Shown: piece after piece, positions 50,165 through 63,868 of the stretch | How the letters are laid out: every line of letters begins with the position of its first letter | Numbering within the stretch: the stretch's first letter is position 1 | Assembly: GCA_001515945.1 (NCBI GenBank) | Contig: LOER01000032.1 | Coordinates: 1-64,000, forward strand | DNA: 64,000 nt | Source of the DNA: Desulfitibacter sp. BRH_c19 | GTDB lineage: Bacteria; Bacillota; DSM-16504; Desulfitibacterales; Desulfitibacteraceae | Reading direction: 5' to 3' | Notes under the pieces: model-generated | Databases searched by the model: none | Seen by the model: the letters and a program-made list of their open reading frames with translations, nothing else | Told to the model about the DNA's origin: nothing | Program-made: the position numbers and the translations under genes

Positions 50165-50353
50165 TTATTTTTTAGGCTTCTTAACAGGGACTTTTCCAGT
50201 TGCGATTGTGGGCTGCACAGTAGCTTTCTCAACTTTTTTCTTCTTTTTTGGTGGTCTATTTGGGGTCTTATCTCCCATATCAAACATCTCCTCTCTTGCT
50301 TGTTCTTTATCTTCACGCATAATAATCAGTAATTGCTTTAGCTCCTTGCTCAA
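50165..50353 (-). CDS. Short hypothetical protein with basic, proline-lysine tail
   Basis: A 62-codon frame. The first part is helical and charged (MREDKEQAREEMFDMGD) and the second is rich in Lys and Pro (RPPKKKKKVEKATV, ending KKPKK). The TTG at 50353 has no clear SD, and an ATG lies twelve codons in. The last codons fall in a perfect 12-base inverted repeat, GTTAAGAAGCCT...AGGCTTCTTAAC (50150-50184). It may be a real small nucleic-acid-binding protein or a remnant. Confidence 0.35.
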   Translation of the reverse strand: MSKELKQLLIIMREDKEQAREEMFDMGDKTPNRPPKKKKKVEKATVQPTIATGKVPVKKPKK

Positions 50354-50437: not shown

Positions 50438-51475
50438 CTATAATTTTCCTGTAGGTCTATATATTGTGAGAATGTCTTTTAAAGCTGCCGCTGCCGCTGA
50501 TTTTGGGTCTGATTTTCCGCCAATTATAGTTAATTCACCCATGGTATCTGTATTAAAGCAGACCCCTTTTGTAGCACCGTTTACCGCCGCGAGAGGGTGA
50601 TTGAATGGTAATAGTTTTGGCCCAATATTTACTTTGACTCCGCTAAATGTATTAACTACTTCACCCACGAGTTTAATAACGTTTCCTTCGTTTTTGGCCT
50701 TATATATTTCATCTAATGTAATATCTGTTATTCCTTTGACATTAAGATCATTAATTTTTAAGCCTGCATTCATAACAGTATTGGCTAAAATTAATATTTT
50801 TGCTGCAGTATCCCATCCTTCAATATCTAAGCGTGGATCAGATTCTGCTATTCCTTTTTGCTGTGCTTTTAACAAGGCATCCTCATAAGTAATTCCATTG
50901 TACGTCATTTGCGATAAAATATAATTTGTCGTACCATTAAGAATTCCTTGAATTGAACTAATTTCAGTTCCAGCTAGGCAATACATGGCTACATCAATTG
51001 TAGGTAGAGCTGCTGCAGTTGCGCCGCTAAACTTTAAATATGCATTATTTTCTTTGGCAAGTTGATGTAATTTGTTATAACTACATACTATTGGACCCTT
51101 GCTTAAAGTTACAAAATGTATTCCTTGGGATAATGCAGCTATAGCGTGTGATAAACCAGGCTCTCCCGTGTCTAGATTAGTTGGTCCTGCTTCTAATACT
51201 ACATTCGGTTTAGTATCTTCAATAGCTTTCAGACCACTTACTCCTTTTCTCCATTTATTAAGGTTTGTGCAAATATATTCTTCTTTAGTTTTCAATATTT
51301 CTTGTAAAACTAAACCATTTTTATCAATAGCTCCTCCTTTTGTACCAACTGCTGCGACAATTAAAGGTTCTAAATTATAATCATTCATAATAATATCCTT
51401 TTTCTCTATAATAAGTTCAACAAATTTTCTACCCACATTTCCATAGCCAATTAAAGCAATTTTTATTTTTTTAAT
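50438..51475 (-). CDS. Homoserine dehydrogenase without ACT domain, apparent AUU start
   Basis: Reduces aspartate semialdehyde to homoserine with NAD(P)H. This 345-residue second copy lacks the ACT domain of the hom at 60.4 kb. It shows ILNGTTNYILSQM, DIEGWDTAAKI and a C-terminal GELTIIGGKSDPKSAAAA. A GTG at 51436 would remove most of the Rossmann loop (KIKIALIGYGNVGRKF). In frame upstream the only codon correctly spaced from AGGAGG (seven bases) is ATT at 51475, so I infer initiation there. It lies downstream of the ApgM-like gene after a long gap with its own promoter. Confidence 0.85.
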   Translation of the reverse strand: MKKIKIALIGYGNVGRKFVELIIEKKDIIMNDYNLEPLIVAAVGTKGGAIDKNGLVLQEILKTKEEYICTNLNKWRKGVSGLKAIEDTKPNVVLEAGPTNLDTGEPGLSHAIAALSQGIHFVTLSKGPIVCSYNKLHQLAKENNAYLKFSGATAAALPTIDVAMYCLAGTEISSIQGILNGTTNYILSQMTYNGITYEDALLKAQQKGIAESDPRLDIEGWDTAAKILILANTVMNAGLKINDLNVKGITDITLDEIYKAKNEGNVIKLVGEVVNTFSGVKVNIGPKLLPFNHPLAAVNGATKGVCFNTDTMGELTIIGGKSDPKSAAAAALKDILTIYRPTGKL

Positions 51476-51559
51476 ACAATAACCTCCTCGTCCTTACATA
51501 ATTGAATTTAAAAATTGTAAGAATTGGTAAGTAACAAAAAGTTAAGTCGTCCTTTTAAC

Positions 51560-51588
51560 AATTTACCATTATTACCAATAATAATCAA
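51560..51588 (-). promoter_or_regulatory. Promoter of the second homoserine dehydrogenase, palindrome in spacer
   Basis: On the minus strand TTGATT (51583-51588) and TAAATT (51560-51565) are 17 bases apart. The spacer contains the dyad ATTATT-GGT-AATAAT. The gap 51476-51787 otherwise holds two hairpins (separate entries) and no gene. Confidence 0.5.
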
Positions 51589-51646
51589 ATGGCTTTAGGT
51601 AAAGCTAACAGTATAAGTAAGAAACTATAGTAAATGGTTCTTTAAC

Positions 51647-51696
51647 TATAAAACAAAACTTGGCTTGCGCCAAGTCCTTAGACGCAGGCGCAAGCC
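51647..51696 (-). terminator. Strong GC-rich hairpin upstream of the second homoserine dehydrogenase
   Basis: GGCTTGCGCC (51662-51671) and GGCGCAAGCC (51687-51696) pair perfectly, followed on the minus strand by AAGTTTTGTTTT. The segment CTTGGC-TTGC-GCCAAG within it can form a competing hairpin. It may be a second terminator after the ApgM-like gene or part of a switch. Confidence 0.55.
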
Positions 51697-51749
51697 TTAG
51701 TCTTTGTTAATACTATCTACCTTGTTTGAACTTATACTTCTGATAGTAT

Positions 51750-51777
51750 AAAAAAATCCTCATACAAGATGAGGACA
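51750..51777 (-). terminator. Intrinsic terminator after the ApgM-like gene
   Basis: GTCCTCAT-CTTGT-ATGAGGA on the minus strand is followed by seven T residues. It begins about ten bases past the stop at 51788. A near-identical sequence recurs at 58575-58605. Confidence 0.85.
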
Positions 51778-51787
51778 AAAGTGAATA

Positions 51788-53005
51788 TTAGTCTCGATGC
51801 CTAGCTAAAAAATAATCCATTAATCTGTGTCCTACATCAAAATAATAATTTGATGCTTCTGCTGATTTTTCAGAAAAGTGATTATTAGGTGTCTCTCTTG
51901 CCTGGGTGGAATCGTAGATAACATAAGGTACAGGATCTGATGAATGTGTCCTTATAGATACGGGTGTTCTATGATCAGGTAATACCATCAATTTAAAGGG
52001 TTTGCCAGAAGTCTCAAAGTATTCAAATATGGGTCGTACAACCAATTCGTCGATAATTTCGATGGATTTTATTTTTTCTTTAAGATTACCTTGATGTCCG
52101 CATTCGTCAGGAGCTTCTAAATGTATATATACGAAATCATCACTAGAAAGAGCCTCAATCGCCGCTTTGGCTTTGCCGGTAAAATTCGAATGAATAGTAC
52201 CAGTAGCCCCTTCAACTTTTACCGGTTTTAAACCTGCAAGTAAACCAATGCCATTAATCAAATCTACTGCTGAGATAACTGAGCCTGATAGATTGAATTT
52301 TTTTTCAAAGGAATCTAACCTTGGTTTTTTACCTTCTCCCCAAATCCAAATGGAATTTGCAGGATTAAGCCCTAGTTCCACTCTTTTTATATTTATCGGA
52401 TGATTTTTAAGTAGATCATAGGATTTTTTAGTCATATCAATGATAAAATCCTTGTCGGGTCCTTTAGGTAAATAATCCTTGATTTTTTTTCCCAAGATAT
52501 CATGAGGTGGGGTCAAATCAAATTCATAGGGTCCTTTATCCCAAACGATTAAGTGCCTGTAGCTTACACCGGGATAATACTTCAAAAACTCAGTTTGAAG
52601 GTCCTCTCTAATATCAAGAATTAATTGACTAGCTTCTTCTGTGGTAATATCTGATGATGAATGGTCAATCATAGTCTTATTTTCATAGGGTTCATCACCA
52701 GAAACCGTTACTAAATTACATCTAAAGGTAACATCGGTTTCAAGTAATTCCACGCCCATAGATGCAGCTTCAAGTGGAGACCTTCCAGTATGATAAATCA
52801 ATGGGTCATAACCCATTACTGAGAGATTCGCAGTATCACTACCAGGGGACATGCTATCTGGCACAGTCTTTACCATGCCTATTTCTCCAAGCTGAGCTAA
52901 TTTAGTAATACATGGAATGTTTGCAACCCCTAAGGGTGTTTTGTTTCCCAATTCTTCAATTTCATAATCAGCCGCTCCGTCTACCAATATTGTTATATAC
53001 TTCAT
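51788..53005 (-). CDS. ApgM-family protein, putative alternative homoserine kinase
   Basis: A 405-residue alkaline-phosphatase-superfamily protein of the archaeal-type cofactor-independent phosphoglycerate mutase family. It has ILVDGAADYEIEELGNKTPL, the metal/phosphoserine region SPGSDTANLSVMGYDP, VYIHLEAPDECGHQGN and VLPDHRTPVSIRTH. A branch of this family is proposed to act as homoserine kinase where thrB is missing. Its place between thrC and a homoserine dehydrogenase, with no intact GHMP-type thrB seen in the window, favours that role. Mutase activity remains possible. GAAGGAG precedes the ATG. Confidence 0.85.
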   Translation of the reverse strand: MKYITILVDGAADYEIEELGNKTPLGVANIPCITKLAQLGEIGMVKTVPDSMSPGSDTANLSVMGYDPLIYHTGRSPLEAASMGVELLETDVTFRCNLVTVSGDEPYENKTMIDHSSSDITTEEASQLILDIREDLQTEFLKYYPGVSYRHLIVWDKGPYEFDLTPPHDILGKKIKDYLPKGPDKDFIIDMTKKSYDLLKNHPINIKRVELGLNPANSIWIWGEGKKPRLDSFEKKFNLSGSVISAVDLINGIGLLAGLKPVKVEGATGTIHSNFTGKAKAAIEALSSDDFVYIHLEAPDECGHQGNLKEKIKSIEIIDELVVRPIFEYFETSGKPFKLMVLPDHRTPVSIRTHSSDPVPYVIYDSTQARETPNNHFSEKSAEASNYYFDVGHRLMDYFLARHRD

Positions 53006-53034
53006 AATATCGCCAGTCTCCTTCTATATATAAT

Positions 53035-54519
53035 CTATTTGAGTATTTCTACGACTTCTTTCTTTAAATTATTTTTATCAATTACCCTAGGATGCAAAAT
53101 TTGTTTATCTTGAATATCTTTAATAGGTTCAGGAACATTAATATGAGTTGCATTTGAAAGAATATCAATCAATTCAAAATCGTTATAAGCTTCAGTTTGC
53201 ATACCTAGACCTTCTACAACACTTCTTGTAAATTTGTATGGGCTTGCAGTAGATGCAATAAGTGTATGTGTCATATCAGCAGTTTCATCAACATAATCCT
53301 GATATACCTTAAAACCTACTGCAGTATGGGTGTCTGCCACATAGTTGTACTGCGAATAAAGGAATCGAATTGCCTCAACAGTTTCCTCATCTGTGGCAAA
53401 ACCACCCGAGAAGGCTGCTAAGTTATTCTTCATGTTAATAGTAATCTCATATCTACCATCTTGTTTTAATGATTTCATAAGACTAGTGACACACGCTGAA
53501 TCACGATTGCTGATTTCGTACAAAAATCGCTCAAGGTTACTGGATATCAGAATATCCATAGATGGTGTATTTGTCATTTCAAATTTTCGATGTATATCGT
53601 AAACTCCAGTATTCAGAAAATCTGTGAGAACATTGTTAGTGTTTGATGCACAGATAAATTTTTGTACAGGTAATCCCATGTTTTTTGCATAATATGCAGC
53701 AAGAATGTTTCCGAAATTTCCAGTTGGCACGACAATATTAATCAAATCACCATTTTTTATATGTCCTTCTTTCACAAGCATTAAATACGAATGAACATAA
53801 TACACAATTTGGGGAAGTAATCTACCAATATTAATGGAATTGGCTGAAGAAAAAGTGTACCCCTTTGATTTTAGCTCTTCCCTTAATTCTTCATCCAAAA
53901 ATATATCTTTAACTCCGTTTTGTGCATCGTCAAAATTTCCTGTTATGCCCAATACCGTTACATTAGCACCCCCTTGAGTAGTCATCTGCCTCTTTTGAAC
54001 ATCACTAACGCCCTTGGTAGGATAAAAAACAATAATTTCGATTCCATCAACGTCTGCAAAGCCTTCAAGTGCTGCTTTTCCTGTATCTCCAGAGGTTGCT
54101 GTAAGGATAACTATTTTTTCTTTTATGGCAAGTTTCTTTGATGCAGTCTTTAATAAATAAGGTAAAATGGACAAAGCCATATCTTTAAAGGCTAAAGTTT
54201 TCCCATGATATAGCTCTATAAAGCTCGCTTTATCAAGGGTCTCTATAGGTGCAATCAACAATTCTCTAAATTTTGAATCATAAGCATGATCAACACAATA
54301 GCTAATCTCTTCAATAGAAAAATCCTCAATATATAAACTCAGGATCTTTTTTGCTAAATCTTGATAACTCAAATTTAAGAGATCATCATTAAAAACGAGC
54401 TTAGGAAATTTTGAAGGTACATACAACCCTCCATCTGGTGCAATCCCCTTAACAACTGCTTCTGAGAAAGTGAGTTTTTCATGATTCCCTCTTGTACTAC
54501 TATAATAAATATTAGACAT
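53035..54519 (-). CDS. thrC: Threonine synthase
   Basis: Converts O-phosphohomoserine to threonine with PLP. The 494-residue protein is of the longer, E. coli/yeast-like type: YYSSTRGNHEKLTFSEAVVKG start, PLP lysine in GKTLAFKDMA, ATSGDTGKAALEGF and VPTGNFGNILAAYYAK. The ATG at 54519, preceded by GGAGG, is chosen over the frame open to 54579. It is the first gene of the threonine cluster, 29 bases before the ApgM-like gene. Confidence 0.95.
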   Translation of the reverse strand: MSNIYYSSTRGNHEKLTFSEAVVKGIAPDGGLYVPSKFPKLVFNDDLLNLSYQDLAKKILSLYIEDFSIEEISYCVDHAYDSKFRELLIAPIETLDKASFIELYHGKTLAFKDMALSILPYLLKTASKKLAIKEKIVILTATSGDTGKAALEGFADVDGIEIIVFYPTKGVSDVQKRQMTTQGGANVTVLGITGNFDDAQNGVKDIFLDEELREELKSKGYTFSSANSINIGRLLPQIVYYVHSYLMLVKEGHIKNGDLINIVVPTGNFGNILAAYYAKNMGLPVQKFICASNTNNVLTDFLNTGVYDIHRKFEMTNTPSMDILISSNLERFLYEISNRDSACVTSLMKSLKQDGRYEITINMKNNLAAFSGGFATDEETVEAIRFLYSQYNYVADTHTAVGFKVYQDYVDETADMTHTLIASTASPYKFTRSVVEGLGMQTEAYNDFELIDILSNATHINVPEPIKDIQDKQILHPRVIDKNNLKKEVVEILK

Positions 54520-54611
54520 GGTATACCTCCATATAAAGTGTGTCCAATAGGCACATAAATGTATTTTAACTTCATCCATAAATAGCTATGTTGAGTTATT
54601 ATTTCTACATA

Positions 54612-54641
54612 ATTCTACAATAATCCTTTAAGAATCGTCAA
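54612..54641 (-). promoter_or_regulatory. Promoter of thrC
   Basis: On the minus strand TTGACG (54636-54641) and TAGAAT (54612-54617) are separated by 18 bases, about 90 bases upstream of the thrC start. The gap 54520-55259 otherwise contains a terminator, the tRNA fragment and one hairpin. I see no gene in it. Confidence 0.7.
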
Positions 54642-54680
54642 CTAAGTGTAAAACTGTATGTATACATGGTTATACTTTGA

Positions 54681-54725
54681 TAGAATAAAAAAGATGATTT
54701 CTGTTGAATTCAGAAACCATCTTTT
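54681..54725 (-). terminator. Terminator downstream of the tRNA-Pro 3' fragment
   Basis: AAAAGATGGTTTCTG-AATTCAA-CAGAAATCATCTTTT pairs over about 15 bases with one mismatch, and the minus strand continues TTTTTTATTC. It lies 12 bases past the tRNA-Pro fragment, where the terminator of an intact tRNA gene would be expected. Confidence 0.75.
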
Positions 54726-54736
54726 GTTGCTGTTGA

Positions 54737-54789
54737 ATTAATGGTCGGAGCGACCGGATTTGAATCGATGACCTCCTCTACCACCCCAA
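54737..54789 (-). repeat. Direct-repeat copy of the 3' half of tRNA-Pro(GGG), probable att site
   Basis: The 53 bases match 58749-58798 of the intact tRNA-Pro(GGG) flank and 3' half. Two substitutions and one three-base insertion (CTC) separate them. The match starts five bases beyond the CCA end and breaks off in the anticodon loop. Both copies are in the same orientation. Such partial tRNA duplications mark the far end of elements integrated by tyrosine recombinases. The copy cannot form a working tRNA. Confidence 0.85.
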
Positions 54790-55119
54790 TTTTCTGAAGG
54801 GCAAAATGCTTGCAAAAATCCATGCATATAGATGGAAATTTTTAAATGTATCAATGGCTTATCTAATTGTAAAAAATAGTACATTAAAATCTAACGCATT
54901 GTAGCATGTCTTTTTATTAACCCCGTAACTGTCAAAACCTATCTCCTAAATATGTAATTAACTGTTGAATATCTTTGTCCTTACTCAAGCAAAACTTAAC
55001 TTTATCAAGAAAATAGTAACATACTATATATAGAGTCATACACTCTTATTTACATCCACTTTTTCAAAGACTGATATTCATGTTAGTATTTTAAAATAGT
55101 TGTATAGAAATCTGATTTA

Positions 55120-55170
55120 TTTTTAATAATAAGTAAAGGTCAATGCATTATATTTTTGCATTGACCTTTA
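55120..55170 (-). terminator. Hairpin after the M14 peptidase gene, probable terminator
   Basis: TAAAGGTCAATGCA (55134-55147) and TGCATTGACCTTTA (55157-55170) form a perfect 14-base stem with a nine-base loop. The minus strand continues with an A/T-rich tract. It lies 90 bases past the peptidase stop. Confidence 0.65.
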
Positions 55171-55259
55171 CACTTACATGACGAACTATCTTTTTTCTCT
55201 AGCTAGTATAAGTGTTCAAGTTTCTATTGACCCTATAATCTGTTTAGTCCGAATCTCCA

Positions 55260-58103
55260 TCAAGTTGTGCCGCAAATATTGCATTGGGCTAAGAACCTAT
55301 AAGAGTACCTTGGATGTGCTCTGTTGGTTAAGTCATTGGCAAATAGGGTAATGGAGGCGCCATCAATTTTCGTTGTAAATGCAAAAATCTGGCCTTGTGC
55401 TCCTTCATAACCTGGCCACCAGCCAGCTTTGTAGAAATCATCTCCATCACTTACACTTGCAAGGACTTGTGCACCTTCAGGAACAGATGTTATCCATGAT
55501 CCTGAAGTAGTATATAGGTAGTCCTCCTCACTATATCCAGCTGTAATTAAGCTGTTCTGATTAATTATACCGTGTAAAAGCCCTTCGCCTCGGGCTCTAC
55601 CTTTATCATCAGAGCGGTCATAGTCAAATCCCGGAATTAAACTACTATCCTTTAATTGAGTAAATGATCCTCCACCAACTCCAATATAGTGTTTACCACT
55701 TTGCAATTCGGTTCCACTATTATCAACAATTACATCTGCCTGATTCCTTGATACAAGGTTAAAACCTAATTCCTTGAGTACAAATGTACTTTCATAACCG
55801 TTTACTGATACTTTTGGCTGGGCCAAAGTTATTGTCTTCACCGAAGTTAGATTCACTGCGGCTAAGTCAAGTACGTAATTATTTGATAAATTGTTAATAT
55901 CTGTTTTGGAAACTAAATAGTCCCCCATAGAATATCCATCACCAGATTCTAATATCCATTTAACGGTTTTACCTTTAGCTAACAATTCATTAACTACCCT
56001 TATGGCATCATTGTTAGAATTTTTTATTACATATTCATCTGCATTCTTAACCTCTTTGTCATTACCTATTATTATATTACCTTTAGGAATAACCATCTTT
56101 TTAACTTCTCGTGTATTGTCATCAAATGCTTCTTCAACTCTTACTTCATATCTGTCAAACCCACGTAAATCATGGAAAACCATTGCAATTTCTGCATACA
56201 TAACGGGCCAATCAGACCAATTGATTCCGTCAGACAATACTGTATTAGCAAGTCCACGTTTTGCCTGGTGCATTGGTACTATATAACTCCCTGCTGGGTA
56301 AGTAATACCATCTACATCAGTACTTTTTACTAATGTATCTACTTTTATTCCATTTCTCAGAAGCCATTCCACCATATTATAAGCTTCCAAAGCATTTCTT
56401 TGTAACTCTTTCTCTACAGGAATTACATAATATTCTGGGAAGAAGTTATCATTGTTCCCTCTTTCCCTTCCGACAACTGTTTCCAAATCAGGAGCCACAA
56501 AGTATTCATCTACTTCCGTATCGTCTATACCTTGAACACCTCGCCTGAAAATCTCGAGTTGGTCCATAAATAAATCATCCTTACCATCTATAGCATATTT
56601 CGCTGCAGCCAAAGCCAAATGTACTGTCGAAGTATTACAGTTCTCGTTTATCTGTGGCATTTCTACAGTAAATCCTAAAGCTCCATGGTGCATTGCATAT
56701 TGTGCTGTATAAGAAGGTGCAGAATCCTCCCAACCTGACCCCCAATGATCTTGAGCAATGCGATATTGTGTATATGTTGAATTTGCGATTGCTGCGTTAC
56801 CCATGGTATAACCTAATGGATTCATATTTTTATTTAGTAAGTCATACTCATAGTTCTGATCATGAGGCGGTGTACATGGATCTATTACCATTGAATCATA
56901 AAACCCATGTAGATCTAAAAAGATTAATGGAGTCCACTTTGCTATCTCTGAAGTTACAATTTGAGTTTCTATTTGTGTCTGGAAAGCGTTATCACGGTTT
57001 AGGTCAAAGCCATTTGTATTTTGTCTAACCATATGATATCTTCCATCAGGATTCTGAGTAAGGTTAAACAAAAGTATAACATCGTCTAAAGCTTCATCTA
57101 CATTGATAGATACCTTTGTCTTTTCTCTGTCGCCTTCTATACCACTTCTATCATCATCATCATATGTCCAATATTCTATTGTTTCCTGTGTAGAAAACCA
57201 CTCCATAAGTTTAATTTGAGCATCAATTCCTATGGTTTCATCTGGGTGAATATTATTGTACCAAATAGGTACTTTGTAATCTCCTATGGTGCCATCCTTG
57301 AGTTTTTCTTGCAAAGCTTCTGGGTTTTCTAACATAAGAGGAAGTGTCTTTTTAAGATAATTATCAACTGATTTTTTATCCTTAGCCACTATAACAAAAT
57401 TTATATCTCTACCTTCATTTGTTTTGCCTGAGACTTCATGTTCAATATATCTACCGTTAATTACATTTCCTTTGATTTCATCAATTACATCTCCAAATTC
57501 ATCGTAAAGGTAAAAACTATCATATGGAGCCACTCTCATTATCCTTTTTAGTTCTATTCCTGTTTCTATATCTTTTACTATTAAATCAAAATAGCCAGTT
57601 AAGTCTACAATTCTAGGACGAATAGTCCTAGAAGTTGGACTAGATGTATCAAACAAAAGTTCATTCTTAATCTGAGCTTTTACAACAGTTCCATCAAGAT
57701 AAGGTTCTGTTTCGAATAGAATAAATGGATCACCAGTATAATCTCTTGCATCAAAATCCCAAGTTTTCCATTCATCAAATTGTTTTCCCCCAAGAGTCCA
57801 TTCTAACTCTTCTAAATCAGGTAAATAGCCGAAATCTACCTCAATGTTGATTATCCTTACTTCTGTCATGGGTATAATTTCATTACTTACTGTGAGACTT
57901 CCCTCTGCTTCATTTCCTTTAACCTTGTCTGCTGCTTTATTTCCTTTAACCTTCTCTGGTTGTTCATTTACTTTAACCTTGGCTATTGCCTCACTTCCTT
58001 GAGCAAAGGCTGCTACTTCACTTCCTTGAGCAAAGGATACTGATGAAAAAGCCAACAAAATCATTAGTAATACAAAAATCTGGACTACTCTTTTCCTTAA
58101 CAT
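55260..58103 (-). CDS. Secreted M14-type zinc carboxypeptidase-like protein
   Basis: A 947-residue exported protein. A signal peptide (about 1-25, hydrophobic core VLLMILLAFSSVSFA) is followed by a short repetitive linker (AQGSEVAAFAQGSE, then KVKVNEQPEKVKGNKAADKVKGN). A beta-rich domain and the M14 catalytic domain follow, with zinc ligands H286 and E289 (NNIHPDET), H399 (LDLHG), substrate-binding GFDLNRD and catalytic E481 (GFTVEM). The last 400 residues lack a known fold to me. No sortase or S-layer anchor is evident. It is the only intact gene in the islet between the tRNA-Pro repeats and has no promoter or partner genes in common with its neighbours. Confidence 0.85.
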   Translation of the reverse strand: MLRKRVVQIFVLLMILLAFSSVSFAQGSEVAAFAQGSEAIAKVKVNEQPEKVKGNKAADKVKGNEAEGSLTVSNEIIPMTEVRIINIEVDFGYLPDLEELEWTLGGKQFDEWKTWDFDARDYTGDPFILFETEPYLDGTVVKAQIKNELLFDTSSPTSRTIRPRIVDLTGYFDLIVKDIETGIELKRIMRVAPYDSFYLYDEFGDVIDEIKGNVINGRYIEHEVSGKTNEGRDINFVIVAKDKKSVDNYLKKTLPLMLENPEALQEKLKDGTIGDYKVPIWYNNIHPDETIGIDAQIKLMEWFSTQETIEYWTYDDDDRSGIEGDREKTKVSINVDEALDDVILLFNLTQNPDGRYHMVRQNTNGFDLNRDNAFQTQIETQIVTSEIAKWTPLIFLDLHGFYDSMVIDPCTPPHDQNYEYDLLNKNMNPLGYTMGNAAIANSTYTQYRIAQDHWGSGWEDSAPSYTAQYAMHHGALGFTVEMPQINENCNTSTVHLALAAAKYAIDGKDDLFMDQLEIFRRGVQGIDDTEVDEYFVAPDLETVVGRERGNNDNFFPEYYVIPVEKELQRNALEAYNMVEWLLRNGIKVDTLVKSTDVDGITYPAGSYIVPMHQAKRGLANTVLSDGINWSDWPVMYAEIAMVFHDLRGFDRYEVRVEEAFDDNTREVKKMVIPKGNIIIGNDKEVKNADEYVIKNSNNDAIRVVNELLAKGKTVKWILESGDGYSMGDYLVSKTDINNLSNNYVLDLAAVNLTSVKTITLAQPKVSVNGYESTFVLKELGFNLVSRNQADVIVDNSGTELQSGKHYIGVGGGSFTQLKDSSLIPGFDYDRSDDKGRARGEGLLHGIINQNSLITAGYSEEDYLYTTSGSWITSVPEGAQVLASVSDGDDFYKAGWWPGYEGAQGQIFAFTTKIDGASITLFANDLTNRAHPRYSYRFLAQCNICGTT

Positions 58104-58456
58104 TTTTTCATTCCTTCTTTTTATTGTGAAAATCCAGCAATTTTAGACAAATATTGATAGAAAATTCTGAATTATCTTTTCTAAAAGTATTCTATATTCT
58201 AATTAGTTTATCCTTCTTTATTTCTATATTATTCTAAAAACGTATAATTATGGAACAAGTTGCATGTCGTATCAGGTGTATTAGCTTTAATAAAAAGAGA
58301 ATCCTTCAGCAAAGTAATTCCGAATGATTTTTTATTTAATACATTAAAGATAAAGCAGCTGATTATTCAACTGCCTTTATCAATATAATTAAAACCTATG
58401 ATCTAAGTATTGCAGCTAATGGCCTTTATTTACTAAAAAGAAAGAAATTTAGATAA
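58104..58456. other. Non-coding stretch upstream of the peptidase, with a possible gene fragment
   Basis: On the minus strand TTGTTC and TAGAAT about 16 bases apart near 58236-58257 could be the peptidase promoter. On the plus strand 58350-58450 reads KDKAADYSTAFINIIKTYD, then AANGLYLLKRKKFR and stop, with stops immediately upstream. This short fragment looks like a decayed gene of unknown family. Confidence 0.3.
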
Positions 58457-58558
58457 AATCATCTCTCTCGTACACACACAAAACCAAAACCCTGGTCCAT
58501 TGCAGACACTTACTCTCATGTTTCGGCGCAGTTAGCATCAGACGAAATAGCTAAGTAG
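58457..58558 (+). pseudogene. C-terminal remnant of a tyrosine integrase
   Basis: A 33-codon frame without a start reads HLSRTHTK, then SIADTYSHVSAQLASDEIAK and TAG. ADTYSHV is the catalytic-tyrosine box of phage and ICE integrases, and HLSRTHT resembles the HxLRHTH box that carries the second active-site arginine. The 25 or so residues normally between the boxes (including LGH) are missing. It lies about 195 bases from the intact tRNA-Pro(GGG), the usual place for the integrase of a tRNA-integrated element. Confidence 0.75.
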
Positions 58559-58574
58559 ATGGGGTTATTTACAA

Positions 58575-58605
58575 CAAAAAAAGTCCCCATACAAGATGAG
58601 GACAA
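58575..58605 (-). repeat. Second copy of the 51750 terminator-like sequence
   Basis: CCCCATACAAGATGAGGACA and the flanking A7 run match 51750-51780 with two or three differences. The minus strand forms GTCCTCAT-CTTGT-ATGGGGAC followed by seven T residues. It could terminate transcripts from tRNA-Pro(GGG), 150 bases upstream. Nearby, ATTACTGTCAAA occurs twice (58680-58703). Confidence 0.6.
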
Positions 58606-58753
58606 ACTGAATAATATTCTCTATCACATTACCGTCAAAGGAATACCCTCTAGTGGCGGTAATGCTATTTTTAATTCAAATTACTGTCAAAATTACTGTC
58701 AATATTCAATATTTAAGGATGTGTTAAAAAACCCCGAAAACCGTTGATATTAA

Positions 58754-58830
58754 TGGTCGGAGCGACCGGATTTGAACCGACGACCTCTACCACCCCAAGG
58801 TAGCGCTCTACCAAGCTGAGCCACGCCCCG
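58754..58830 (-). tRNA. tRNA-Pro (GGG)
   Basis: The minus strand folds as a full tRNA beginning CGGGGCGTGGCTCAG. The anticodon stem CTACC/GGTAG encloses loop TTGGGGT (anticodon GGG), with a GGTTCAAATCC T-arm and encoded CCA at 58754-58756. The 3' half is duplicated at 54737-54789, which marks this tRNA as an integration site. Confidence 0.95.
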
Positions 58831-58846
58831 ACAGGCTACAGAGTAT

Positions 58847-58875
58847 ATTCTACAACCTGAAGCATATAAAGTCAA
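58847..58875 (-). promoter_or_regulatory. Promoter of tRNA-Pro(GGG)
   Basis: On the minus strand TTGACT (58870-58875) and TAGAAT (58847-58852) are 17 bases apart and end 16 bases upstream of the tRNA. The tRNA therefore has its own promoter just past lysC. Confidence 0.8.
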
Positions 58876-58931
58876 GAAGTTAATTTACCAGCAGTTTACA
58901 GTCAATGGGAAATCTCAGACTATAAGGATGT

Positions 58932-60176
58932 TTAACCAGCTACATTTGCGACATCTTCATTTTGTAGGTTGAATTTGTCAACTAGAGTTTTAACAGCCTT
59001 AATGCAATCCTTAGCGTCAATTATGACAGAAACCTTAATTTCAGAGGTACTAATCATTTCTAAGTTAATATTGGCTTCTGCCAAGGCTTCAAACATATCA
59101 GCTGCTACACCTGGGTGGGTAATCATTCCAGCTCCTACAATGCTGACCTTTGCAATGTTCTCTGTACAACCCATACCCCTGGCATTCATTTTTTTAGCAA
59201 TCTTTTCCAAAATATCTTTAGTCTTTTCCATATCCTCTTTCTCTATAGTAAATGCTATATCATTAACACCATTCACTTTAGCACTTTGCACAATCATATC
59301 AACGTTTATAGATTGCTCAGCAAGTGTCTTAAATATTCTACAGGCCATTCCAGGGATATCAGGAACGCCAAATACTGCCATCTTTACTGCGTTTAAATCA
59401 TGGGCTACACCACTAACAACAATTTCTTTTTCCATTTCCATATTGCTGACCTCCTGAACGATGGTTCCTTTAGAATTATTAAAGCTTGATCTTACATGAA
59501 GCTTAACATTATAAATTTTAGCAAACTCTACAGCTCTTGGTTCTAAGACCTTTGCGCCAAGACTAGCCAATTCTAACATTTCATCAAAGGATACGTAGTC
59601 TAATTTTTTAATGTTAGAAACGATCCTAGGATCTGCAGCATAGACTCCATCAACATCAGTATATATTTCACACATTTCTGCTTCTAAAGCTGCAGCAATA
59701 GCAGCAGCAGTTGTATCAGAGCCACCTCTGCCGAGGGTGGTTATATCATCATTTATAGTTGCTCCTTGGAAACCAGCTACTATAACTATTCTACCTTGAT
59801 CTAACTCTTGATGTAGCCTATCAGAACTAATATCAAGAATTCTTGCCTTACAGTGGATATTATCTGTTGTAATTCCAGCTTGTGGACCTGTTAATGAAAT
59901 TACAGGTTCACCCATTGCTTGAATAGCCATTGCTAAAAGAGCTATTGAAACTTGTTCACCAGTAGCTAAAAGCATATCCATTTCCCTTTTGGATGGAGAA
60001 TCTGATACTTGTTTTGCCAGAGAAATTAAATGATCTGTATTATCACCCATTGCTGAAACTACGGTAACAACCTTATGACCCATTCTCTTCGTCTCGACAA
60101 CTCTTTTTGCTACTCTCTTTATTCTTTCAGCATCAGCTACTGAGCTACCTCCGAATTTTTGAACCATAATGCTCAT
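58932..60176 (-). CDS. lysC: Aspartate kinase
   Basis: Phosphorylates aspartate at the entry to lysine, threonine and methionine synthesis. The 414-residue protein starts [18 protein letters not shown], with [18 protein letters not shown] and [15 protein letters not shown] in the kinase domain. Two ACT domains (about 265-410, [19 protein letters not shown] and [21 protein letters not shown]) provide feedback control by amino acids. It is monofunctional and resembles the Bacillus-type enzymes. Its ATG overlaps the stop of the damaged small gene upstream. I see no lysine riboswitch. Confidence 0.96.
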
Positions 60177-60402
60177 AGCTGTACTACCCCTCTCTCCTTA
60201 ATAATTTCTACTCCATTAATTTCCGTATTTAGATTTTTTATTGTACATTCAACTCCTGATTTTTTGAAAGAATCTTTGATTGCTTGGGCTATTATTACTG
60301 ACGCACTACTTTCTAAATCCCTTGGTAGTGTTATACTATTAGCAATTTTATTTTTAAACCCTTTGGCTTATAATTGCTGATATATAAGCCTTGCCAATGC
60401 AT
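60173..60402 (-). pseudogene. Small gene between hom and lysC, frameshifted or nonsense-interrupted
   Basis: An ATG at 60402 directly follows the hom stop and has GGGGGA nine bases upstream, but its frame ends after 23 codons (TAA at 60331). The -1 frame is open from 60367 to the TGA at 60173, which overlaps the lysC ATG, and encodes ITLPRDLESSASVIIAQAIK, then DSFKKSGVECTIKNLNTEIN and [13 protein letters not shown]. The frames are joined across G_GGT_TTA (60355-60361) and T_TTA_AAA, both canonical -1 slippery heptamers. Alternatively the -1 frame is one gene broken by TAA at 60368. The tail loosely recalls the C-terminus of homoserine kinase ThrB, whose gene often lies here. Confidence 0.55.
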
Positions 60403-61698
60403 TTACTTGTTTCCCCCTTCAACACGAATAACATTTGAGATAGTATCAACTATAGACATACCACCAATTATTTGTAGTGCATCCCTGACACTATTTTCGG
60501 TTACCACATGAGTGATTAATACAATCTCTGCTTTACCATTGTTACCCATACTTTTTTGCAATACTGAAGCTATACTAACATCATGGTTTCCAAAAACACT
60601 AGCAATGCTTGCTAGGACACCAGGTTTGTCTGCAACCTTAAGCCTAAGATAATATTCACTTCTTAGTTTACCTATTTCAATTATAGGTTTATCTTCAAAG
60701 CATGTACAGGAAATTCTGCCGGTTACACCATATGCAATGTCCCTAGCTGCAGCTACAATATCTCCAACTATAGCACTTGCAGTTGGCAGTTCACCGGCTC
60801 CCTGACCAAAAAACATTGCCTCACCAATTGCGTCACCTTTAACAAAAATGGCATTATATGCATCATTTACAGTAGCTAATGGATGATTTTTTGGTATAAA
60901 TGCTGGATGAACTCTAACTTCAACGTAACCATTTATGCTTTTAGCAATTCCTAAAAGCTTTATAACATAACCTAAATCCTTGGCATACTGAATATCTTCT
61001 ACCGTAATATTAGTAATGCCCTCCACAAAGACATCTGAAAAAGTAACTCTTGTACAAAAGGCAACAGATGCAAGAATTGCTATCTTTCTTGCTGCATCAA
61101 AGCCTTCAATATCTGAACTAGGATCTTCCTCTGCATATCCTAGTTCTTGAGCTTCCTTAAGTACTTCATTAAAGTCTGAACCTTCTAATGTCATTTTTGT
61201 AAGTATATAATTTGTTGTGCCATTAATAATTCCCATAACCTGCTCTAGTCTATTTCCAGCTAAGCACTCTTTTAAAGGTCTTATTATTGGTATTCCGCCG
61301 GCAACGCTTGCTTCAAAAAACAGATCATTGTGTTTATTTTCAGCAGCGGCAAATAATTCTTTTCCATGAATAGCAAGTAAATCCTTGTTTGCTGTTACAA
61401 CATGTTTACCATTTTCTAACGCCTTGATAATGTAATCTTTTGTAGGTTGAATTCCACCCATAACCTCAACTATGATATTGATTTCAGGATCAGCTAATAA
61501 GTCTTCAGGATTATCAGTTAAGATTTCAGTAGGTACTGATAAATTTCTTTGTTTATCTTTATTTCTTACAAGAATTTTAGCCAACTCAACAGGTTTTCCA
61601 ACCTTTTTAGTTATACTATCCTGATTGTTTTGTAAAACCTTTGCAACACCAGTTCCAACAGTTCCTAGTCCTAGTAGTCCAACTTTAATAGTATCCAT
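60403..61698 (-). CDS. hom: Homoserine dehydrogenase with ACT domain
   Basis: Makes homoserine from aspartate semialdehyde. The 431-residue protein has KVGLLGLGTVGTGVAKVL (Rossmann loop), the catalytic region IINGTTNYILTKM with DIEGFDAARKIA, and a C-terminal ACT domain (YYLRLKVADKPGVLASIASVF) for threonine feedback. The ATG at 61698 lies eight bases after AAGGAGG; an earlier ATG is too close to it. It is the second gene of the ACT-hom-lysC operon. A shorter homologue without ACT lies at 50.4 kb. Confidence 0.95.
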   Translation of the reverse strand: MDTIKVGLLGLGTVGTGVAKVLQNNQDSITKKVGKPVELAKILVRNKDKQRNLSVPTEILTDNPEDLLADPEINIIVEVMGGIQPTKDYIIKALENGKHVVTANKDLLAIHGKELFAAAENKHNDLFFEASVAGGIPIIRPLKECLAGNRLEQVMGIINGTTNYILTKMTLEGSDFNEVLKEAQELGYAEEDPSSDIEGFDAARKIAILASVAFCTRVTFSDVFVEGITNITVEDIQYAKDLGYVIKLLGIAKSINGYVEVRVHPAFIPKNHPLATVNDAYNAIFVKGDAIGEAMFFGQGAGELPTASAIVGDIVAAARDIAYGVTGRISCTCFEDKPIIEIGKLRSEYYLRLKVADKPGVLASIASVFGNHDVSIASVLQKSMGNNGKAEIVLITHVVTENSVRDALQIIGGMSIVDTISNVIRVEGGNK

Positions 61699-61711
61699 AT
61701 ACATTGCCTCC

Positions 61712-62170
61712 TTAAGACTGCCCAACCAGCTCTACCTTAACCACTCCAGCTAGGTCACTAAGATTTTTAAGTAATTTATCTAGTGAAATAGCCATTTGAG
61801 CTATTTCAACTGATATGGTTACATGTCCTACACCCTGTAAAGGTATGTTTTGGTTAATAGTTAATATGTTTGCATTTGCCCTGGCAACGGTATTTAATAC
61901 TTGTGATAAAATACCAGCTTTATGGTCTAAAAGCATTGATAAGCTAACTATTGTGCCTTTAAGTGGATCCTGAAGTGGAAAAACACCATCTCTATACTTA
62001 TAAAAAGCACTTCTACTTAAGCCAACTTTATCTACAGCTTGATTGACAGTATCTACTTTACCCTTACTAATTATCTCCTTAGCCTCAGCAGTTTTTAAAA
62101 TAGCTTCAGGTAATATATCAGCCCTGACAAGATAAAACTTTTGTTCACTATTATCTTTCTTAGACATCAT
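61712..62170 (-). CDS. ACT domain protein, UPF0735/PheB family
   Basis: A 152-residue protein. The N-terminal third is a helical, HTH-like region (VNQAVDKVGLSRSAFYKYRDGVFP) and the C-terminal half is an ACT domain (LSMLLDHKAGILSQVLNTVARANANILTI). The family is usually encoded next to hom or pheA and is thought to sense amino acids, possibly as a regulator. It is the first gene of the operon, 13 bases ahead of hom. AAGGGGG precedes the ATG. Confidence 0.88.
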   Translation of the reverse strand: MMSKKDNSEQKFYLVRADILPEAILKTAEAKEIISKGKVDTVNQAVDKVGLSRSAFYKYRDGVFPLQDPLKGTIVSLSMLLDHKAGILSQVLNTVARANANILTINQNIPLQGVGHVTISVEIAQMAISLDKLLKNLSDLAGVVKVELVGQS

Positions 62171-62227
62171 ATTAAAATACCCCCTTGATGTCCATGTGAT
62201 AAATACATATATCCATTCATGATAGAC

Positions 62228-62256
62228 ATTATAACACCCCCATTTAGGGGGTGCAA
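62228..62256 (-). promoter_or_regulatory. Promoter of the ACT-hom-lysC operon with palindrome between -35 and -10
   Basis: On the minus strand TTGCAC (62251-62256) and a perfect TATAAT (62228-62233) are exactly 17 bases apart. The dyad CACCCCC-TAAAT-GGGGGTG (62235-62253) fills the spacer and overlaps the -35. A protein bound there would block or remodel the promoter. The adjacent PheB-type HTH/ACT protein is one possible ligand-sensing binder. Confidence 0.75.
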
Positions 62257-62390
62257 GTTAAAATTATTCTTTTTAAAGATTATTTTAACACCTAGTCCTA
62301 TATCTCAATAGCTATTGGCCTTATTAGCAATGGAAACAGTATAACTAGGATAAGTATATCAAAAGTGATAGTAGCTGTAAAGTTAGGACA

Positions 62391-63671
62391 CTATTTTTGA
62401 CTATCTGCTAATGCATTATCAAGATCATTTCTTATATCTTCTATATCTTCTATTCCTATGGATAACCTAATTAAATCATCACTTACACCACTAGCTAATC
62501 GTTGTTCAGGTGTTAATTGCTGATGTGTTGTACTAGCAGGATGGATAACAAGTGATTTAGCATCCCCTATATTAGCAAGCAATGAAAACAGCTTTAAACT
62601 ATCAATGAATTTCTTACCTTCCTTAAGGCCACCTTTTATACCAAATGTCATAAGTGCACCACAACCCTTTGGAAGATACTTTTGAGCATGGTCATAATTT
62701 GGATGAGCCTCTAGACCAGGATAGTTTACCCAACTTACACTAGGATGTGTGCTCAAATGCCTCGCTATTGCAAGGGCATTTTCGCTATGTCTTTCCATTC
62801 TAAGATGAAGGGTCTCGATTCCTTGTAATAGTAGAAAAGAGTTAAATGGACTGAGACTGCAGCCAATATCTCTCAATAACTGAACTCGTGCTTTAACTAT
62901 ATAGGCTGCGGGTCCACATACTTCAGTATAGCTAACTCCATGGTAACTTGGATCAGGATCTACTAGTCCAGGAAATTTATCTTTAGTCCATTGAAATTTA
63001 CCAGAATCTACGATTACCCCTGCAATTGAGGTTCCATGACCTCCTAAGAATTTAGTTGCGGAATGAACAATTATATGTGCTCCATGCTCAAATGGGCGGC
63101 ATAAATATGGAGTAGCAAAGGTATTATCAACTATCAACGGTATATTATGTTCTTCTGCCAGTTTTGATAAAGCTTCAATATCAGGGATGTCCATTTTTGG
63201 GTTTCCAATTGATTCTATATACAAGCACTTAGTTTGTGGAGTTATGGCACTAGCCATTTCAGTAACATCAGGCTTCACCATTGTTACATTTATACCGATT
63301 TTTTTTAATGTAACAGCAAATAGATTAAAGGTTCCTCCATAAAGGCTTGAAGATGATACCAGATGATCCCCAGCTTCACATATGTTTAAGATTGCAAGAG
63401 TAATGGCAGCTTGTCCTGAAGATACTGCTAAAGCTCCCACTCCACCTTCTAGAGAAGCTACTCTTTTTTCGAGAACATCAGTAGTAGGGTTCATTATTCT
63501 TGTATAGATGTTTCCTGGCTCTTCTAAAGAGAATAGTCGTGCAGCATGATCACTATCCTCAAATAAGTAACTTGTGGTTTGATAAATTGGAACAGCCCTA
63601 GATAAAGTGTCTTTATCTGGAACATGTCCTTCATGAAGTGCTCTGGTGTTAAAGTTAAATTTGTTGTTCAT
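62391..63671 (-). CDS. metY: O-acetylhomoserine aminocarboxypropyltransferase (sulfhydrylase)
   Basis: A PLP enzyme that makes homocysteine from O-acetylhomoserine and sulfide. The 426-residue protein has [48 protein letters not shown] and the PLP lysine in [17 protein letters not shown]. The length and N-terminus favour MetY over the shorter MetB/MetC enzymes. AAGGAGAGAG precedes the ATG. A SAM-I riboswitch controls it. Confidence 0.93.
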
Positions 63672-63696
63672 AATTACTCTCTCCTTTTAATATAAA

Positions 63697-63847
63697 ATAA
63701 GCCCCTTCGATAAGAAGAGGCTTTTAACGGCATTTCGACTCTCTTATCTATCAGCCAATAAAAAACTGGGGCTGCAGGATTTAGCACCTTCCCTAAGGGG
63801 GGTTGCCGGGTTTCATAGGGCCAGTCCCTCCACCACTCTAAATAAGA
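63697..63847 (-). promoter_or_regulatory. SAM-I (S-box) riboswitch of metY
   Basis: The minus strand shows the conserved S-box core: CTTATTTAGAG for helix P1, GGTGGAGGGACTGGCCCTATGAA, CCCGGCAACC, GGTGCTAAATCCTGCAG, and the P1 partner GATAAGAG at about 63742. The expression platform is the hairpin AAGCCTCTTC-TTATC-GAAGGGGCTT followed by ATTTTA (63697-63726). When SAM is bound, transcription should stop before metY. Confidence 0.95.
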
Positions 63848-63868
63848 TTCTTTATTAAATTATTTAAA

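Follow-up and report, generated by a model that had tools for sequence, protein, structure and literature searches.

Translation of infC begins at AUU in Escherichia coli and Bacillus subtilis (PMC1805508; PMC6097659 for B. subtilis). In Staphylococcus aureus, near-cognate starts serve cvfC1 (AUU), ccpN (AUA) and, in the NCTC 8325 lineage, citZ (AUA), with an output of ~10% of AUG in poor medium and, for ccpN, up to 30% in rich medium (PMC13009471). The GTC start of Streptomyces sigR, a gene other than infC, is repressed by IF3 (PMC5472188).

The homoserine dehydrogenase gene described here, hom2, lies on the minus strand of a 64,000-nucleotide stretch of a Desulfitibacter contig (the window) and is very probably a further member of a class already known but rare, that of genes with a likely AUU start; the few such genes listed in bacteria are joined here by one for a biosynthetic enzyme. 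As in infC of E. coli and B. subtilis, AUU follows a strong Shine-Dalgarno (SD) sequence and would be the sole start. Unlike infC, whose product IF3 inspects the start codon and closes a feedback loop, hom2 encodes a biosynthetic enzyme that cannot close such a loop. Feedback of the kind that the earlier note attached to AUU starts is only inferred for hom2; because hom2 is not an initiation factor, any effect of IF3 would be one-way, as for sigR (PMC5472188). The likeness to sigR lies in a non-canonical start on a non-infC gene, and one-way control of hom2 by IF3 is proposed by this analogy (PMC5472188); sigR differs in its codon (GTC), in its product, which is a regulator and not an enzyme, and in having been demonstrated experimentally.

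The three S. aureus genes share with hom2 their phylum (Bacillota) and a near-cognate start, with strong extended SDs in cvfC1 and ccpN, and citZ is likewise a metabolic enzyme gene with a lineage-specific start change (PMC13009471). Ribosome profiling and reporters located their starts, whereas that of hom2 is predicted from sequence; the starts of cvfC1 and ccpN are conserved among relatives, and that of hom2 is not. With AUU documented in cvfC1 and AUA in ccpN and citZ (PMC13009471), the earlier view that AUU starts are known mainly from infC and pcnB is too narrow. Gene callers that allow ATG, GTG and TTG only would put the hom2 start within or beyond the cofactor-binding loop and so lose the N-terminus. 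Further cases could be sought by looking, at the codon where homologues start, for a near-cognate codon that has an SD at the proper distance, and hom2 lends itself to a simple test of whether such starts in enzyme genes reflect tuning or accident.

Start region of hom2

Read from ATT 51475, the hom2 frame ends with the stop codon 50440-50438 (50438..51475, minus strand; 345 amino acids) and encodes a homoserine dehydrogenase without an ACT domain. On the minus strand its head reads ATG TAA GGA CGA GGA GGT TAT TGT ATT AAA AAA ATA AAA ATT GCT TTA ATT GGC TAT GGA AAT GTG GGT. Read directly from this sequence (all features minus strand), the in-frame stop TAA at 51496-51494 closes the frame upstream and is followed by the SD AGGAGG at 51488-51483 (AGGAGGT to 51482), a seven-base spacer (TTATTGT) and the proposed start codon ATT (AUU) at 51475-51473, nine codons before the GxGxxG motif. 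Of the SD, 7 bases are matched, and its spacing of 7 to the start codon recurs in other genes here, e.g. AGGAGGCATTATT-ATG. From the in-frame TAA to GTG 51436 the hom2 frame contains no ATG, GTG or TTG. The first canonical in-frame codon is therefore this GTG (51436-51434), inside the loop GYGNVG; it was rejected as a start, having no SD and costing the protein strand beta-1 and half of GxGxxG. The TTG at 51479 was rejected as well, being out of the hom2 frame and opening a mini-frame, TTG TAT TAA (51479-51471), that stops directly after TAT. On all of these points, namely the GTG inside the loop, the in-frame ATT seven bases after AGGAGG, the short out-of-frame TTG and every coordinate of the start region, the earlier note agrees with the minus-strand sequence. 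A bare ATG TAA (51494-51499, with the ATG at 51499) precedes the hom2 SD; it has no SD of its own and is probably accidental.

Upstream of hom2, a consensus scan placed a terminator-like stem after the preceding gene (51678-51655, minus strand), one of two such stems between the kinase gene and hom2, and promoter-like hexamers TTTATA-17-TATAGT at 51652-51624 (minus strand); stem and hexamers suggest that hom2 is probably transcribed alone. The idea that the leader holds an attenuator or a conserved RNA element was rejected, as Rfam returned nothing above the gathering score there and the leader fold was no better than that of shuffled sequences (z 0.27).

In this AT-rich window, ATT follows AGGAGG at 5-9 nt in 7 places for 36 occurrences of AGGAGG, and the AGGAGG-ATT pair was therefore rejected as evidence in itself, being frequent by chance. 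Of the longer AGGAGGT the 64 kb window has 10 copies on its two strands together, from which the chance of finding it at spacing 5-9 from a random position is about 4e-4. The case rests on AGGAGGT standing at start spacing from a codon that homology sets independently, an arrangement that, judged from these counts, is not due to chance. As a control, we searched the 219 open frames of 150 codons or more in the whole 246,664-base contig for a near-cognate codon that follows an SD and precedes the first canonical start. Only in hom2 did such a codon lack a canonical start close behind it, the gap being 13 codons; in all other cases in the contig the canonical start was at most 2 codons further on.

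Homologues of hom2 and the start of infC

Homologues were collected by using a four-member profile, which gave 80 loci 37-54% identical to hom2 (a genome scan with the single hom2 protein was empty). All 80 have a canonical start. In counts made without reference to the start of hom2 itself, ATG, GTG or TTG stands exactly 9 codons before GxGxxG, the position of the hom2 ATT, in 56/80, and a canonical start stands 8-10 codons before the motif in 76/80 and at 13 in the remaining 4; the comparison of N-termini proposed in the earlier note thus agrees with a start at 51475. The first column of hom2 aligns with the Met of 64/80 homologues, in an alignment biased towards agreement, since homologue starts were picked close to where they were expected. 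Both PRK06270 and PRK06813 (NCBIfam) align hom2 residue 2-3 at profile position 2. None of the 80 homologues shares the ATT start, the best of them are only about 54% identical to hom2, and hom2 was not found in close relatives (none in the genus, order or class).

Read from ATT, the predicted N-terminus is (M)KKIKIALIGYGNVGR, and AUU is the reading that yields a complete predicted Rossmann domain. The gene assignment is based on NCBIfam and Pfam (Homoserine_dh, 3.8e-55; NAD_binding_3), with a full-length match to the NAD-binding and catalytic domains (PF00742, PF03447). PRK06813 scores 325.6 bits (above its cut-off of 286) and PRK06270 331.5 bits (below its cut-off of 373); relatives in the PDB include 3do5. 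Of 53 columns that 95% or more of the 80 homologues conserve, the protein retains 52. In a maximum-likelihood tree, where the nearest rows are Bacillus suaedae, Candidatus Acetocimmeria and Aquibacillus, its terminal branch measures 0.43, against 0.51 and 0.75 for its sister rows. By these measures hom2 is not visibly decayed and its branch length is ordinary, and it is an intact homoserine dehydrogenase that is probably active. Directly downstream, 50165-50278 (minus strand) may encode a small lysine-rich protein, MGDKTPNRPPKKKKKVEKATVQPTIATGKVPVKKPKK, which could reach 62 amino acids if TTG at 50353 is used.

In the genome that carries hom2 and in a congener (G001), infC (L121, L122) has an ATT start after GGAGGTGA. 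Its head in the hom2 genome reads GGAGGTGACAAAAT-ATT-AGT-AAA, identified by the B. subtilis pattern and the same in the congener, and in neither genome does infC have a canonical in-frame codon before residue 27. Across a phylum sample of infC genes the corresponding codon is ATT for the most part and sometimes ATC. Given the ATT start of infC here and in the congener, this organism appears to use AUU for initiation. Gene callers likely truncate infC in both congeneric genomes.

Proposed mechanism and competing explanations

The AUU-start reading put forward in the earlier note is supported by homologue N-termini, SD spacing, conserved residues and the ATT-started infC, and we consider it likely that hom2 has undergone a lineage-specific change of start from ATG to ATT, rescued by its strong SD, with low and IF3-sensitive synthesis. 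The ancestral start of hom2 in this lineage, most simply ATG, would have become ATT through one substitution. AGGAGGU, 7 nt upstream, would place the 30S subunit on the AUU at 51475-51473, initiator tRNA would pair with two of its three bases, and translation would begin there with fMet. Initiation would be expected at about a tenth of that from AUG and repressed by IF3, thereby keeping hom2 scarce relative to hom1, the other homoserine dehydrogenase, with an output that would track the IF3 level. We infer both the correctness of the ATT base and actual initiation at AUU; a low hom2 level and dependence on IF3 would be expected by analogy, from the near-cognate output in S. aureus and the repression of sigR by IF3.

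The base itself comes from one draft assembly (48 contigs), and a sequencing or assembly error would leave the true genome with a canonical start, most simply ATG at 51475, one base away from the ATT and at the position where most homologues have theirs. The earlier note saw the main form of such an error in an indel within the A7/A5 runs. Enumeration excludes it: one or two A more or fewer in either run gives no in-frame ATG, GTG or TTG. A-run indels cannot supply a start because TAA 51473-51471, which covers only the first two A7 bases, already ends the TTG frame. An artefact would then have to be a miscalled base in the start codon itself or an indel lying upstream of the A runs. To random base errors a start codon offers a very small target, and a second such gene was not found in 246,664 bases; these are prior arguments rather than proof, and with them we regard an error as unlikely.

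Recent loss of the start codon would make hom2 a nascent pseudogene covered by hom1, which it duplicates and which is intact. The ATT, found in no relative, fits such a loss, and early loss of a start codon would look alike, a very recent one leaving no mark; the full-length frame, the 52/53 conserved columns, the ordinary branch length and the retained strong SD, in an organism in which AUU appears usable, make it quite improbable. Least credible, to the point that we give it hardly any weight, is a truncated protein with another role, with GTG 51436 or an ATG further on as its start. Gene callers would pick these codons, the GTG being the first canonical one, but it has no SD, and a start there cuts the glycine loop kept by all homologues and leaves AGGAGGT without a gene.

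If hom2 does start at AUU, the codon could also have been selected, the lineage having swapped thrC-thrB for a threonine module with its own homoserine dehydrogenase, whose dose is set by an IF3-sensitive start; threonine synthesis would then be tied to the state of the translation machinery. As no homologue has ATT, conservation does not speak for selection, and we hold this extension to be doubtful.

Threonine-pathway setting

Upstream of hom2 on the minus strand are a proposed phosphoglycerate mutase-like homoserine kinase (51788..53005; TIGR02535, 512 bits, cut-off 446) and a long-form threonine synthase, thrC (53035..54579; TIGR00260, 231 bits). The longer homoserine dehydrogenase hom1 (60403..61725, minus strand; PRK06349, 585 bits) is 38% identical to hom2 across the matched part. 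Gene order in this genome is metY-ACT-hom1-ask, and the congener has the run metY-ACT-hom1-thrC-thrB-ask, in which thrC and thrB were assigned by family search and the other members by resemblance to the annotated genes of the window. Unlike in the congener, thrC-thrB is absent between hom1 and ask in the hom2 genome, where no thrB scored above cut-off anywhere and a second thrC-family gene lies on another contig (C42); the long-form thrC, the TIGR02535-type kinase and hom2 stand some kilobases on from ask. A protein search of the congener found no comparable relative of hom2, of this kinase or of the long-form thrC. From this comparison of two genomes only, hom2 seems to be part of a replacement threonine module, duplicating hom1, and its case is of interest because the gene encodes an enzyme of a pathway module that seems to have been replaced. 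The apparent replacement spans 50438-63848, and a SAM riboswitch (RF00162, 85.5 bits) lies at 63741-63848, upstream of metY.
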